Part shown: piece by piece, positions 23,959 through 60,308 of the stretch
Position numbering within the stretch: position 1 is the first letter of the stretch
Layout of the letters: the number at the start of each line of letters is the position of its first letter
NCBI RefSeq assembly: GCF_004101785.1
Contig: NZ_CP035130.1
Coordinates: 992,001 to 1,056,000, forward strand
Length of the DNA: 64,000 nt
Direction of reading: 5' to 3'
DNA from: Gudongella oleilytica
GTDB taxonomy: Bacteria; Bacillota; Clostridia; Tissierellales; Tissierellaceae
The notes under the pieces: generated by a model
The model's input: the letters and a program-made list of their open reading frames with translations, nothing else
Databases searched by the model: none
What the model was told of the DNA's origin: nothing
Program-made: the position numbers and the translations under genes

Positions 23959-23990
23959 AAAAAATGCCATCCGATCGGATGGCATTTTTT
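23959..23990. terminator. Bidirectional terminator between NSS and the thioredoxin genes
   Basis: A perfect palindrome (ATGCCATCCGATCGGATGGCAT) is flanked by A6 and T6, so it serves both strands. Its right edge touches the stop codon of the minus-strand gene. Confidence 0.93.
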
Positions 23991-24639
23991 ATGCAACTTG
24001 AGTTTTCTCTATCTCTTCAAGAAATACTTCCAGAGGTTGGTTTCCAACGAATTCGTAAATATCATTTATTACTATCTTCGGCACGCTTGATACATTATAC
24101 TCGTCTGACAGATCATAGAAGGTTTGTGCCTCAATCATATCTGCAGTAATGTTATCATTCAACAATGCCAGGTGGTGAGCTTTTTCAACTGCACCCGGAC
24201 AATGCGGGCAGCCAAGAGTTACAAAAACCTTTATATTTACAGGCTTTTTAACCTTTGAAAGTCTTTCAGTGATAGATTCAGCCAAAGGTTGACCATTTCC
24301 TGATACAGCGATAACGCTGCTTATAAAGGAGTTTATCTCATGTCCTGAAGGTATACCGTTAAATTTGATTCTCTTATATTCGCCTGTTTTATCGAGAAGA
24401 ACAAGACTGGGTGCAAGAGAAACTTCGAATTTCTCAGCCAGGTCTGAATCCTTATCAAGGTCGTATTCAACCAGTGACATCTTAGGGGATGCCTGGACTA
24501 ACTCACCAACAAAATCCCTGGTTTCAAGACAAGTCTCGCAAAGTTCCTCCTTGGTGAAAAGAGCGATTTTAACTTCATCCTTCATGGCTGAGAATACGTC
24601 CTTTAGTTGTTCTAATACCTCTTCATTGATATACTTCAT
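23989..24639 (-). CDS. Protein disulfide oxidoreductase-like protein with two thioredoxin folds
   Basis: The 216-residue protein contains two thioredoxin folds: the first with CETC (34-37) and a cis-Pro in SLAPSL, the second with CPHC (144-147) and cis-Pro in SSVPKI. This architecture resembles PDO/glutaredoxin-like proteins and the N-terminal part of AhpF, which pass electrons from a thioredoxin reductase to a peroxidase or disulfide. It follows the thioredoxin reductase gene by 15 bases, so the two probably form an electron relay. No peroxidase gene lies beside it. Expression should follow the operator at 25693-25717. Confidence 0.88.
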   Translation of the reverse strand: MKYINEEVLEQLKDVFSAMKDEVKIALFTKEELCETCLETRDFVGELVQASPKMSLVEYDLDKDSDLAEKFEVSLAPSLVLLDKTGEYKRIKFNGIPSGHEINSFISSVIAVSGNGQPLAESITERLSKVKKPVNIKVFVTLGCPHCPGAVEKAHHLALLNDNITADMIEAQTFYDLSDEYNVSSVPKIVINDIYEFVGNQPLEVFLEEIEKTQVA

Positions 24640-24654
24640 CTGTTATCCCCCTTA

Positions 24655-25632
24655 TTATTTCAGGTTATTTATATAGTCGTTTGCAGCCAGTGCACATTTT
24701 GCACCATCAGCAGCCGACATTATGATTTGCTTGTAAGGTGTGTCAGTAACATCACCAGCAGCGAACACACCGGGAACACTTGTCATTCCGTAACGGTCAA
24801 CGGCTATTTCATTTCTGGAGTTCAACTCGACAAAACCCGCAAACATTTCGCTATTTGGCAAATAACCAATCTCCACGAATAACCCTGACGCTTCAATTAT
24901 ATATTCTTTTGAACTTTCCTTATCCAGCACCCTTATTCCACTCATAAATTTGCCACCAATAACTTCGAGTATTTCTGTAGCAAGCTTAATTTTCACATTT
25001 GGTTTTTGAATCAGTTGATCAACCAAAACCTTATCAGCCCTGAACTGCGAACGGTGAACGAGCGTTACCTTAGCTGCAATCTTCGATAGGTCAAGGGCGG
25101 CTTCAACGGCTGAATTTCCTCCACCTGCTACGACGACTTCTTCCTCTGCAAACAGTGGGCCGTCGCATATGGCGCAATAGCAGACGCCCTTACCTGAAAA
25201 CTCCTTTTCACCAGTAATACCCAGTCTTCGAGGCTTGCTCCCGGTTGCAATGATGACTGTTTTTGTTCTGAAAGCTTTGCCGCTCTTCAAGGTGACAATC
25301 TTGACGTTTGATTCAGTATCGTTTTGTACCTTCTCGACTTCCTCATATTCAAGAATTGTAACATTAAGCTCTTTGACATGTTCTAAAAATTTTTTCACCA
25401 GACCTTCTCCTGAGAGAGAAGGAAGGCCAAGGTAGTTTTCGACGGATGAAGTATCAATTACCTGACCACCTTTGTCCCGGGCAATTATTAATGTTTCCAA
25501 GCCCTTCCTCTTAGCGTATAAAGCAGCATTAAGTCCTGCTGGGCCAGCACCCAAAATAAGAAGATCATAAATCTTATTATCATCCTGAATGGCTGCTGAT
25601 GTTTTTTTGTGTAAATTGATTTCGAAACTCAT
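24655..25632 (-). CDS. trxB: Thioredoxin reductase-like flavoprotein
   Basis: The 325-residue protein has the FAD motif ILGAGPAGLNAALYA near 26-40, the redox-active CAIC (153-156) in the central domain, the NAD(P) motif VVAGGGNSAVEAALDL and a C-terminal GVFAAGDVTD. Standard TrxB carries HRRxxFR for NADPH; here it reads HRSQFR, so cofactor preference may differ. An N-terminal extension of about 20 residues precedes the FAD fold. The ATG follows GGAGGTG. It heads a two-gene operon with the double-thioredoxin protein, which is its likely acceptor. Confidence 0.93.
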   Translation of the reverse strand: MSFEINLHKKTSAAIQDDNKIYDLLILGAGPAGLNAALYAKRKGLETLIIARDKGGQVIDTSSVENYLGLPSLSGEGLVKKFLEHVKELNVTILEYEEVEKVQNDTESNVKIVTLKSGKAFRTKTVIIATGSKPRRLGITGEKEFSGKGVCYCAICDGPLFAEEEVVVAGGGNSAVEAALDLSKIAAKVTLVHRSQFRADKVLVDQLIQKPNVKIKLATEILEVIGGKFMSGIRVLDKESSKEYIIEASGLFVEIGYLPNSEMFAGFVELNSRNEIAVDRYGMTSVPGVFAAGDVTDTPYKQIIMSAADGAKCALAANDYINNLK

Positions 25633-37774: not shown

Positions 37775-38221
37775 ATGGCAAGCTTGATACCTTTTAACAG
37801 GAAAGGAAACAGGTTGATGGGTCCGGACTTCGGTGATTTCTATGGTATGCTGGATGATTTCTTCAGCGACGATTTTATGCCGAGAAGAAGCCTGGTCAGG
37901 GACACCTTCAAAGTGGACGTAGTTGATAAGGAGAAGGAGTATGTAATCGAGGCTGAGCTTCCAGGTGTTAAGAAAGAGGAAATATCCCTCGATATCCACG
38001 ACGGTCAACTCAGGATCTCTATTGAGAGAGAAGAGAAGGTCGATGAGGAGAAGAAAAATTACATCCACAAGGAAAGAAGATATAGCTCTATGAGCAGATC
38101 CGTATATCTTGGGGATGCATCAGCGGATTCGATCAAAGCAAAGCTCGATAACGGCGTTCTTACAATTACTATACCAAAGACAGAAAAGCCTGAAGTAAAA
38201 AGCAAAATCGAAATCGAGTAA
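37775..38221 (+). CDS. hsp20: Small heat shock protein, Hsp20/alpha-crystallin family (copy 2)
   Basis: The 148-residue protein closely matches the copy at 3896: MASLIPFNRK start, LDDFFSDDF, a crystallin domain with RRYSSMSRSVYL and the GVLTITIPK motif. It is an ATP-independent holdase. The ATG at 37775 lies nine bases after AGGAG; an upstream in-frame start at 37730 falls inside the CIRCE and is not credible. With copy 1 it forms a CIRCE-regulated pair; neither hrcA nor dnaK/groESL is in the window. Confidence 0.95.
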   Translation: MASLIPFNRKGNRLMGPDFGDFYGMLDDFFSDDFMPRRSLVRDTFKVDVVDKEKEYVIEAELPGVKKEEISLDIHDGQLRISIEREEKVDEEKKNYIHKERRYSSMSRSVYLGDASADSIKAKLDNGVLTITIPKTEKPEVKSKIEIE

Positions 38222-38228
38222 CAAAAAA

Positions 38229-38256
38229 GCGGGGAAAAGCAGAACCCCGCTTTTTT
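38229..38256 (+). terminator. Terminator of hsp20 copy 2
   Basis: GCGGGG and CCCCGC flanked by A6 and T6 form a strong hairpin with a ten-base loop. Confidence 0.92.
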
Positions 38257-38270
38257 CATATGACGAACAT

Positions 38271-38294
38271 ACCGAGCAACGTGGAGGGATCTCA
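38271..38294 (+). repeat. Degenerate copy of intergenic repeat module A
   Basis: The sequence CCGAGCAACGTGGAGGGATC resembles the A module found at 42492-42520, 46174-46202 and 51518-51546, here without the other modules. Confidence 0.6.
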
Positions 38295-38425
38295 GTATTT
38301 ACCTTTAACTTTTTTTAACAGCGAACAGCTATATGCTAATAGCTTTTTTATAATAACCAAATTCTGATTAGAAACTCTTATTTCAAGGTATATGTATAAA
38401 AACTAACTCCAAAGGAGGAAATACG

Positions 38426-38656
38426 ATGAATGTAATAATCTATTCAACACCCACCTGACCATGGTGCACAAAGGTAAAGGATTACCTAAACCAGAAGAAC
38501 ATAAGCTTCACTGACTACGATGTATCCAAAGACTACAATAAAGCAGTGGAAATGGTTCAAAAATCAGGTCAAAGAGGAGTACCGGTAATAGACATTAATG
38601 GTCAGATCATAGTAGGATTTGACAAGGCCAGCATAGATCAAATACTCGGATTATAG
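38426..38656 (+). CDS. Selenocysteine-containing glutaredoxin-like protein (UGA at the active site)
   Basis: Reading from the ATG at 38426 (AAAGGAGG seven bases upstream) gives 76 residues ending at TAG 38654-38656: MNVIIYSTPT-U-PWCTKVKDYL, then the cis-Pro segment QRGVPVIDI and GFDKASIDQIL. Residue 11, encoded by TGA at 38456-38458, is the place of the first Cys of the glutaredoxin CPWC motif (NrdH/YruB-like). A plausible bacterial SECIS hairpin follows. The frame is otherwise open and in-family to the end, so this is a selenoprotein, not a pseudogene. It would reduce disulfides or persulfides in the cytoplasm. It has its own ribosome site and terminator. The tRNA selenouridine synthase encoded at 42703 shows the cell makes selenophosphate. 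Confidence 0.88.
38459..38493 (+). promoter_or_regulatory. Putative bacterial SECIS hairpin
   Basis: Directly after the UGA, TGGT (38462-38465) can pair with ACCA (38490-38493), and above an internal loop GGTAA (38473-38477) pairs with TTACC (38482-38486) around the loop AGGA. The apical loop starts 19 bases after UGA, within the range of known bacterial SECIS elements. Confidence 0.65.
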
Positions 38657-38662
38657 TGGAAA

Positions 38663-38690
38663 ATGGCTCCCTGAAAGGGGAGCCATGGTT
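38663..38690 (+). terminator. Terminator of the Sec-glutaredoxin gene
   Basis: ATGGCTCCC and GGGAGCCAT pair around TGAAAG, followed by GGTTTTG. Confidence 0.85.
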
Positions 38691-38765
38691 TTGCACAAAT
38701 TTACAATAATATATAACTACCTATTTTAATCCATGGTATAATGGTAGGGTATGGAGGTGAGATGA

Positions 38766-39155
38766 TTGGCAAGACCAATGAAAGAAAGAAAGGTATGCTG
38801 TTTACCGGAAACAAATCTATTCGGACCACTCAATAGAAGACATGCAACAGGTGATGAGATAGTAATGTCTGTTGAGGAGTATGAAACAATAAGACTAATA
38901 GATCAGGAAGGCCTAATGCAGGAAGAATGTGCAGACAGAATGGATGTCGCTCGTACAACTGTGCAGAGGATATACATTTCAGCTCGTAAAAAGCTGGCGG
39001 ATGCAATTGTGGAAGGAGTAACCCTGAAAATCGAGGGTGGATCATATAAGCTATGCTCCGATGATGAGAAGGACCACTTCTTCTGTAAGAATTGCAGGCT
39101 GCACCCCGGCAGACAAAGAAGAAGACACCAGGGGATGTACAAAAGTCAGGAATAA
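38766..39155 (+). CDS. UPF0251 (DUF134) DNA-binding protein
   Basis: The 129-residue protein matches DUF134: [15 protein letters not shown] start, [19 protein letters not shown], and a helix-turn-helix [20 protein letters not shown]. The tail is basic and has a CKNC pair. Members are small DNA-binding regulators often beside Mrp/NifH-like ATPases, as here. It starts at TTG (38766) after GGAGGTGA. A TGGTATAAT extended -10 lies at 38734-38742. Confidence 0.88.
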
Positions 39156-42613: not shown

Positions 42614-42737
42614 TTTCATTGTGAATTGTGCTCTGTGAACTGTAAATTAAAGATTCTCGATTTGACTTTGTCATCCTGACCAACGTAGAGGGATCTATCT
42701 TTTCATTGTGAATTGTGCTCTGTGAATTGTGAATTAA
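42614..42737 (-). repeat. Direct-repeat cassette downstream of mnmH
   Basis: Two 37-base copies (42614-42650 and 42701-42737, 35 of 37 identical, core CATTGTGAATTGTGCTCTGT) flank an A module (42669-42697). The copy next to mnmH codes for the last residues of MnmH. Compared with the ftsH side the A module has the opposite orientation relative to its gene. Confidence 0.75.
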
Positions 42738-43752
42738 GAAATCTCTCAATGAGATTTCTTGCCGTCTCCTCAGGGTCCAGATTCTCAACCTCAAAGACAT
42801 AATTTTTCGGATTATGTTCATACATGGGATCGTAATAATCCCTCATCAACTCCTCTACCACTACTGGGTAGTTTCCATTCCTTACCTCGATGATATATTT
42901 GTCAATCACATCATTCCCGACTCTCTTCCTTAAATGATTCAATGCTTCAATAAGTTCATCATCCGTATCATAGACATAATCAGCCATAATGTTTTTGATT
43001 CTCTGCTCCATTGGAGCGGTTACCCTCACATGCCTTCCATTTCTTATCTTATCAAAAAGGTATTCAGGAATGACTGATCTCCCGATCCTCTTGCTTTCAC
43101 CCTCAGCAAAAACAAGATTTCCTTTTCTGCCTGCAAGCTCCTCAAAAACCAGCGACTCGAACATCTTCTGGCTGTTAGGCTCACCCAGGCCTACTGAACC
43201 AAGGGTTGAACCTCTGTGGTTAGCACAGGCCTCAAGATCAAGAACATCAGCTCCCTGGGCTCTCAAAGCGTCAAGCACCTGAGTTTTCCCAGTTCCCGTG
43301 TTTCCATAAAGCACCACCAGATCAACAGGCTCAGCGATCTTAGGAAGATTATCGTTGATATATGCCCTGTAAGCCTTATAACCGCCGTCAAGTTTTAATG
43401 CACCTATCTTAAGGCTCCTTAAAAGACTTACTATGCTCGTACTTCTGAATCCGCCTCTGGCGCAAAAGAACACCATATGGGGATAGTCCTTACTTATTTG
43501 GAGAAGCTCCTGAAACATCTGCGGTAGCCTTTTGGAAACTGCCTCAATCCCAAGCATCTTCGCCTTATCGACGCTCTCCTGAGCATAGGCTGTACCTATC
43601 TCTGCCCTTTCCTCATTTGTAAAAATAGGAATATTTATTGCTCCGGGAATAGTCTCCTCCTTGTACTCCAGGGGGGTCCTGACATCTATTAAAATGTATT
43701 CTCCAGATGACAGCTTGTCTCTAAGATCCTCGTACTTTATATCTGTAAACAT
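42703..43752 (-). CDS. mnmH: tRNA 2-selenouridine synthase MnmH (SelU)
   Basis: The 349-residue protein has an N-terminal rhodanese domain with catalytic Cys at residue 97 (FFCARGGFRSTS), the same number as Cys97 of E. coli YbbB, followed by a P-loop domain (VVLYGNTGTGKT near 150). It replaces sulfur with selenium at U34 of tRNAs through a geranylated intermediate, using selenophosphate. The C-terminal residues NSQFTEHNSQ are encoded by an intergenic repeat and are unlikely to be ancestral. Its presence fits the Sec-glutaredoxin 4 kb away. It is convergent with ftsH. Confidence 0.95.
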   Translation of the reverse strand: MFTDIKYEDLRDKLSSGEYILIDVRTPLEYKEETIPGAINIPIFTNEERAEIGTAYAQESVDKAKMLGIEAVSKRLPQMFQELLQISKDYPHMVFFCARGGFRSTSIVSLLRSLKIGALKLDGGYKAYRAYINDNLPKIAEPVDLVVLYGNTGTGKTQVLDALRAQGADVLDLEACANHRGSTLGSVGLGEPNSQKMFESLVFEELAGRKGNLVFAEGESKRIGRSVIPEYLFDKIRNGRHVRVTAPMEQRIKNIMADYVYDTDDELIEALNHLRKRVGNDVIDKYIIEVRNGNYPVVVEELMRDYYDPMYEHNPKNYVFEVENLDPEETARNLIERFLNSQFTEHNSQ

Positions 43753-59128: not shown

Positions 59129-59814
59129 TCCAATACCTGGATACGCCTGTTTTTGGAGTAGGGGTATCGATTCTTGCATATTCAATAGGTTTGATGGTGG
59201 CCAAAAGAACAAGACTGGCGATAATGAATCCTCTACTCGTGGCTATGGTAATAGTGATTTCTATCCTTACAATCTTGGGCGTGGATTATCAAACCTACAA
59301 CAAAGGAGGTGCAATGATCACATTCTTCCTTGGACCTGCCACGGTTGTTCTTGCAGTGCCGCTTTACAGACAATGGGAGCTACTGAAGAGCAACCTTATG
59401 CCTATCCTTACAGGGATTGCAGTTGGCTCTATCGCTGGCGTTGCATCAATTATTATACTTGGAAGGCTGCTGGATCTTGATACTGTCCTTATAGCCTCGA
59501 TGGTTCCAAAATCTACAACTACTCCTATTGCCATAGAGATTTCCGCAGTAATAGGAGGAAATCCGTCGCTGACCGCCACTTTTGTTTCCATCACAGGAAT
59601 TACAGGCTTTATAGCCGGAGTAAGGATAATCGATGCCTTTGGTATTAGAAATCCAATTGCAAAGGGCATAGCCATGGGAACAGCATCCCATGCGGTCGGT
59701 ACTGCAAAGGCAATGGAGGTAGGAGAGGTTGAGGGAGCAATGAGTTCTTTGTCAATAGGGGTAGCAGGAATAATAACAGTTTTTCTGATACCGGTCATTA
59801 TGTGGTTTCTCTAA
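59125..59814 (+). CDS. lrgB: LrgB family membrane protein
   Basis: The 229-residue protein has about seven to eight helices and the LrgB signatures MVPKSTTTPIAIEIS and GTASHAVGTAKAMEVGEVEG. It acts with LrgA in membrane and cell-lysis control or metabolite efflux. Coupled to lrgA by overlap; msrA follows 17 bases later, so all four genes to 60823 may be one unit. Confidence 0.94.
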   Translation: MIQYLDTPVFGVGVSILAYSIGLMVAKRTRLAIMNPLLVAMVIVISILTILGVDYQTYNKGGAMITFFLGPATVVLAVPLYRQWELLKSNLMPILTGIAVGSIAGVASIIILGRLLDLDTVLIASMVPKSTTTPIAIEISAVIGGNPSLTATFVSITGITGFIAGVRIIDAFGIRNPIAKGIAMGTASHAVGTAKAMEVGEVEGAMSSLSIGVAGIITVFLIPVIMWFL

Positions 59815-59831
59815 CTGAAGGAGGCATTAAA

Positions 59832-60308
59832 ATGAAGGATATTTACCTTGCCGGAGGGTGCTTTTGGGGTGTTCAGGAGTATTTTTCCAGGATCGAGGGC
59901 GTTGTATATACTGAGACTGGATACGCAAACGGAAAGACCAAGGAGCCTGACTACAGGTCAGTATGCACAGGTACCACAGGACATGCTGAGACTGTGTTTG
60001 TAAGGTATGATGAGGAGAAAGTGGGATTGAAATATCTTCTCGAAAAATTCTTTAGAATTATCGATCCGACACTTATGAACAGGCAGGGCAATGATATAGG
60101 TACTCAGTACAGGACAGGCATCTATTATGTCGATGAAGAGGATGCCATTATTGCCAAAGTTGCAATGGACGAGGTTCAAAAGAAGTATAAAATCCCTTTG
60201 GCAACGGAACTAATGCCATTGTCATATTATTATCCTGCTGAGGATTATCATCAGGATTATCTAAAGAAAAACCCGTTTGGCTATTGCCATATAAATCTAA
60301 ACGCATAG
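59832..60308 (+). CDS. msrA: Peptide methionine-S-sulfoxide reductase MsrA
   Basis: The 158-residue protein has catalytic Cys10 in AGGCFWGVQEYF, GYANGKTKEPDY, GTTGHAETVFV and the tail YYYPAEDYHQDYLKKNPFGYC. It reduces the S form of methionine sulfoxide. ATG at 59832 follows GGAGG; the longer frame from 59802 overlaps lrgB. No MsrB gene is seen; the next gene instead reduces free R-sulfoxide. Confidence 0.96.
   Translation: MKDIYLAGGCFWGVQEYFSRIEGVVYTETGYANGKTKEPDYRSVCTGTTGHAETVFVRYDEEKVGLKYLLEKFFRIIDPTLMNRQGNDIGTQYRTGIYYVDEEDAIIAKVAMDEVQKKYKIPLATELMPLSYYYPAEDYHQDYLKKNPFGYCHINLNA

Follow-up and report, generated by a model that had tools for sequence, protein, structure and literature searches.

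The glutaredoxin gene described here lies at 38426-38656 on the forward strand of the window, a 64,000-nt stretch of the Gudongella oleilytica genome that we analysed at full length. Its frame runs from an ATG start through 76 residues to a TAG stop and contains a single in-frame TGA, at codon 11. Translation gives the N-terminus MNVIIYSTPT-U-PWCTKVKDYL, in which the TGA aligns with the first active-site Cys position of glutaredoxins (TPT-U-PWC). With Cys placed at codon 11, the product scores 68.4 bits against the Pfam Glutaredoxin model PF00462 (cut-off 22.9) and 100.9 bits against the NCBIfam model TIGR02196, GlrX_YruB (cut-off 88.55). An earlier sequence-only reading had proposed a hidden selenoprotein with a sole TGA at the Cys position, a frame that stays open and in-family up to its natural stop, and a strong ribosome site; translation, family models and the upstream sequence agree with it on all three. 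The features of the locus, in window coordinates, are as follows.

37775-38221, forward: small heat-shock protein like Hsp18, upstream neighbour, below its model cut-off (context only)
38411-38418, forward: ribosome-binding site AAAGGAGG, 7 nt 5' of the ATG, read from the sequence directly
38426-38656, forward: putative Sec-containing glutaredoxin of YruB type, 76 residues (translation, family models, orthologs)
38456-38458, forward: in-frame TGA, read as selenocysteine in U-P-W-C (TGA in 11 and TGT in 2 of 13 family orthologs)
38472-38487, forward: candidate bacterial SECIS hairpin, 6-bp stem AGGUAA/UUACCU, loop AGGA (Watson-Crick pairing in UGA sequences, synonymous constraint)
38663-38686, forward: stable hairpin past the stop, 10 bp with a GAAA loop, possible weak terminator (z -5.58 for 38656-38700)
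38766-39155, forward: hypothetical NF003257-like small protein, downstream neighbour, below its model cut-off (context only)

The NF003257-like gene is followed by an Mrp/ApbC-like ATPase gene, also below the cut-off of its best NCBIfam model. Both downstream neighbours are kept in all three other genomes of the genus and the upstream heat-shock gene in two of them; near the other 9 family orthologs, within loci of about 1.5 kb on each side, none of the five neighbours tested has a homolog. The gene had also been credited with its own terminator, a claim that stands in part: the hairpin past the stop is strong, but a terminator scan of 38150-38800 accepted none and the T-run that follows is only four as read. 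The glutaredoxin gene may be transcribed alone. Rfam at its gathering threshold gave no match in the window, and a plasmid search gave none.

Across the window, 76 TGA-interrupted frames passed the length filter, and the glutaredoxin ranked third among them by downstream codon use. A Pfam search of ten others (ranks 1, 2 and 4-11) matched two, to FMN_bind and LrgB, and left eight without a match. As hidden selenoproteins both were rejected: their matches lie wholly downstream of the TGA and, as read, reflect ordinary gene starts.

Selenocysteine machinery and Sec/Cys exchange among relatives

The genome is a single contig of 2.36 Mb with a listed completeness of 97.89%, and it carries a selD-selA-selB-tRNA-Sec cluster on that same contig. 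The cluster components (contig coordinates) and a further selenophosphate user inside the window are:

1393240-1393332, reverse: tRNA-Sec (selC), anticodon TCA (Rfam, ARAGORN)
1394093-1395985, reverse: selB, 384.6 bits against a cut-off of 242.25
ORF immediately upstream of selB: selA, 621 bits against a cut-off of 267.9
1397530-1398456, reverse: selD, 395 bits against a cut-off of 125
42703-43752 of the window, reverse: MnmH, tRNA 2-selenouridine synthase, an independent selenophosphate user, 357.5 bits against a cut-off of 241

Since tRNA-Sec, selB, selA and selD are all found above curated cut-offs, the genome holds a complete Sec route. A genome lacking selA, selB or selC, which the sequence-only reading had named as a refutation, is thus not what is seen, and MnmH, from which the sequence-only reading had argued that Sec decoding was credible, is present as described. 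A second above-cut-off Rfam match to tRNA-Sec, at 1446613, is a tRNA-Ser according to ARAGORN and was set aside. The selD gene has an in-frame TGA of its own (codon 15, motif SSG-U-AAKIG; locus L047, complement of 1402-2439), so that selD of this genome is probably a selenoprotein gene too.

At the position of codon 11, and exactly there, homologs in relatives have either TGA or a codon for Cys. An ortholog at E<=1e-22 occurs in 13 of 28 family genomes, with TGA in 11 and TGT in two (G008 and G027). Among the loci of the genome_contigs set, 11 of 30 have TGA and 19 of 30 TGC or TGT; seven of these 11 TGA loci coincide with family genes already counted, and the 11 come from Tissierellales, other Bacillota, Synergistota and one Chloroflexota. 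Every homolog row examined shows TGA, TGC or TGT at this codon, a pattern opposite to the one named in the sequence-only reading as telling against it, namely close relatives with a normal stop and no Cys alignment. Searched as DNA with zero mismatches across 391 class genomes, the motif (U/C)PWC-x-KVKDYL gave 8 matches: four with TGA, all already known, and four with TGT.

SelB at E<=1e-80 was found in 19 of the 21 genomes searched, among them every one of the 11 family genomes with UGA; the two selB-negative genomes (G005, G010) have no glutaredoxin ortholog at E<=1e-22. Both TGT species have it as well, so lack of selB is not what cost them Sec at this codon.

For the alignment A1, the codon counts and the tree, seven genome_contigs loci (L017-L021, L024 and L025) were left out as protein-identical matches to the search_genomes loci L051-L056 and L062. 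The Chloroflexota homolog L030 has TGA followed by a different peptide and was placed in the tree and outside A1. In one other genus of the order, two genomes (G057 and G068; L077 and L079) have tandem glutaredoxin pairs in which one copy carries TGA (NT-U-PHC) and its neighbour, 160 nt off, TGT. These TGA copies lie outside A1, as do further TGA-bearing matches that exist beyond the defined loci.

Geometry and conservation of the hairpin downstream of the UGA

The hairpin at 38472-38487 lies 19 nt past the UGA. As described in PMC13188914, the bSECIS model takes an apical loop of 3-9 nt with a G within its first two nucleotides, an upper stem of 4-16 bp, a distance of 16-37 nt from the UGA and a minimum free energy of at most -7.5 kcal/mol. 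The hairpin has this geometry (loop AGGA, 6 bp, 19 nt), so the downstream hairpin of SECIS size noted from the sequence does exist, with a borderline energy: -7.3 kcal/mol over 40-50 nt from the UGA and -10.0 over 55-66 nt. Its folding energy does not stand out (z -0.95 and -1.21), and over 66 nt starting ahead of the UGA the minimum-energy fold differs from the SECIS hairpin. Across the 14 distinct UGA sequences (12 from Bacillota and 2 from Synergistota), the 45-nt minimum-energy fold includes the exact 6-bp hairpin in 11; it is missing from L051, L036 and L062, of which L036 retains five pairs, and in the 51-nt fold it is absent from L060 and L061 as well. As a control, we examined all 2662 TGA triplets of the window, counting both strands: a hairpin of the model geometry comes within the next 50 nt after 313 of them, 173 of these also with a minimum free energy of -7.5 or below, so the hairpin of any one sequence proves little.

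Comparison across sequences is more informative, although kinship among them flatters every hairpin conservation test. All 84 of 84 cells are paired in the 14 UGA sequences, against at most 53.6% in slid controls. For cells paired, double-change cells and the covariation score, 2 of 500 shuffles each reached the observed value. Two further measures did no better than shuffling: 261 of 500 shuffles matched the count of double-changed pairs, and all 500 the count of pair types. The double change is G-C to A-U on both stem sides in three sequences of one genus. In two of the three it is purely synonymous (AAG to AAA, CTA to TTA); the third, L056, has TTT (Phe) at the second codon. As one pair in one genus, it may represent a single event.

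Because the KVKDYL peptide itself forces part of the pairing, we took synonymous choice as the fair test and compared distinct sequences that encode the same peptide motif, (U/C)P-(W/Y/H)-C-x-KVK-(D/A)-Y-(L/F), comprising 14 with TGA and 8 with TGT. Six Watson-Crick pairs form in 13/14 UGA and 1/8 Cys sequences (Fisher 0.0004, not corrected for relatedness); with G-U allowed, six standard pairs form in 14/14 and 4/8. The same contrast appears in single codons, TAC being used in 13/14 UGA versus 1/8 Cys sequences and GTA in 14/14 versus 4/8; the loop codon AAG is alike in both (14/14 and 7/8). Among a wider group of 10 Cys homologs, between 2 and 6 of the 6 stem positions pair, with all 6 only in G027 and the other 9 imperfect.

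Hairpin codons also depart from the usage of the same residue elsewhere in the UGA genes: GTA occurs in 14/14 hairpins versus 35/80 elsewhere, TAC in 13/14 versus 8/30, AAG in 14/14 versus 20/55 and GAT in 13/13 versus 39/59. Mean synonymous codon identity is 0.83 across the six codons of the hairpin, a level that none of 20000 random draws reached, as against 0.44 in 50 other columns. The two Synergistota genes carry the conserved hairpin block. Acetomicrobium, a member of that phylum, has Cys and Sec glutaredoxin copies on one contig about 58 kb apart (L035 and L036), with 6 of 6 hairpin positions paired in the Sec copy and 4 in the Cys copy. Conservation at synonymous sites raises the predicted hairpin above chance, and a SECIS is supported by a synonymous constraint that is mostly absent from Cys homologs with the same peptide.

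Rival readings and a proposed mechanism

Three other readings of the interrupted frame merit consideration. A TGA is one substitution away from TGC or TGT, and two family relatives do have TGT, so the frame could be a pseudogene in which a Cys codon mutated to a true stop. The same TGA, however, recurs in 11 of the 13 family orthologs as well as in homologs from Synergistota and Chloroflexota, and the protein 3' of the UGA is conserved, with dN of 0.04-0.23 in eight family pairs (dS was not computable in six of the eight, where we take it as saturated, and exceeded 1.4 in two). A dead gene would not retain both the frame and the synonymous hairpin, and we regard this reading as highly improbable. 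The single-base difference between TGA and a Cys codon would equally allow for a sequencing error in an ordinary Cys glutaredoxin, but assemblies of other species show TGA at the same codon, which leaves this possibility more remote still, close to negligible.

A reassigned or leaky code that inserts Cys or Trp at the UGA would also let the frame continue in family, and the aligned residue in homologs is Cys. Against this stand the complete Sec pathway of the genome, the agreement of the hairpin with the bSECIS geometry and the use of TGA as stop codon by 9 of the window's 42 long ORFs. Under selenium shortage Cys can be inserted at Sec codons; at this one it would not be the normal product. 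We judge such decoding very unlikely, if somewhat less so than the pseudogene. The frame, its family, the decoding machinery, the exchange of Sec and Cys and the synonymous conservation of the hairpin, all read from DNA, together argue that the gene almost certainly encodes a YruB-type selenoprotein glutaredoxin, decoded through SelB and the hairpin, with a Sec-Pro-Trp-Cys site and a predicted disulfide-type reductase activity.

For this selenoprotein glutaredoxin we propose that SelB carrying Sec-tRNA-Sec would bind the hairpin 19 nt past the UGA, leading to decoding of the UGA as selenocysteine. The mature protein would reduce disulfide-type, or selenenylsulfide, bonds, with the Sec selenolate attacking the substrate and Cys14 resolving the intermediate; Sec incorporation, catalysis and substrate are all inferred here from the gene and its relatives. 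Our guess at the electron donor is one of thioredoxin-reductase type, because the bifunctional glutathione synthase model TIGR01435 has no match in the genome (none of 14 control genomes reached its cut-off either) and a thioredoxin reductase was found.

The window also encodes a protein disulfide oxidoreductase (23989-24639) in the 23989-25632 region of the reverse strand, scoring 245.2 bits against TIGR02187, PDO_seleno_TRX (cut-off 185). It has CETC and CPHC motifs without an in-frame stop and adjoins a thioredoxin-reductase/AhpF-like flavoprotein, the latter below both cut-offs. This oxidoreductase could act as the reductant of the glutaredoxin. A Cys-type MsrA lies at 59802-60308 on the forward strand of the window, and two further MsrA copies are found elsewhere in the genome.

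Known relatives and the history of the Sec codon

Sec-glutaredoxins are already known, and the present gene adds a well-supported further example to them; the phenomenon itself is not new. Two reviews, PMC13188914 and PMC9312934, place Sec-glutaredoxins with a UxxC motif in their tables before the heading for predicted families, and in 2006 PMC1794560 listed them for clostridia and Geobacter. The selenoprotein glutaredoxin of Clostridium (Alkaliphilus) oremlandii was characterised by Kim et al. (2011, Mol Microbiol 79:1194), as cited in PMC9312934 and PMC4333827. By those descriptions rather than by sequence identity, the two are alike as glutaredoxin selenoproteins of anaerobic clostridia. 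Unlike in C. oremlandii, a pairing of Sec-glutaredoxin with Sec-MsrA is not seen in this genome: all three MsrA copies are without an in-frame stop, and the idea that the glutaredoxin serves a Sec-MsrA is unsupported in that form.

Relative to GlrX_YruB, whose model it passes, the protein is set apart by Sec at the first active-site position. The UXX-star (seleno)protein families are likewise glutaredoxin-like and, by family name, include selenoprotein members, but the protein falls below the cut-off of each model (bits/cut-off: NF041212, 61.4/66; NF041114, 45/72; NF041211, 44.3/100; NF047338, 32.7/97; and the fusion model NF045501, 32.3/325) and, unlike them, keeps its second Cys (UPWC). Its best solved relatives are the PDB glutaredoxins 7c10 (E 1.1e-15) and 7c12 (E 3.1e-14), which align over residues 2-76 with a one-residue gap mid-alignment and have CPHC and CPHS, respectively, at the active site. 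Our literature search returned no paper tying Soehngenia, selenoprotein and glutaredoxin together, and by title none of the Gudongella papers concerns selenoproteins.

A tree built from 30 selected rows (15 with Sec, 15 with Cys; 76 columns) needs six Sec/Cys label changes, at least four of them forced by supported branches; 12 of its 27 inner branches are open and the bootstrap had not settled. In the sister genus g6, two Sec species and two Cys species form supported sister pairs, and selB is found in all four. The TGT gene of G027 (L057) has the full Watson-Crick hairpin, its 16 nt identical to those of the window, and this hairpin is a likely leftover of a Sec-to-Cys change. A perfect hairpin in G027 beside an imperfect one in G008 would fit a recent change from Sec to Cys better than the reverse. 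Whether Sec was recently lost in some family lines that still have selB, as the two TGA and two TGT species of g6 and the intact hairpin of G027 suggest, is a question on which we stand evenly divided.

Gene finders tend to miss or truncate such short Sec genes, so the catalogues of redox genes in these anaerobes may have gaps. The family offers a clean comparative case: one protein that carries either Sec or Cys, with selB in both kinds of genome and a SECIS legible from synonymous sites. If the recent loss is real, the g6 pattern, together with the near-identical hairpins of Bacillota and Synergistota, would amount to a natural experiment on why one active site retains Sec or gives it up.
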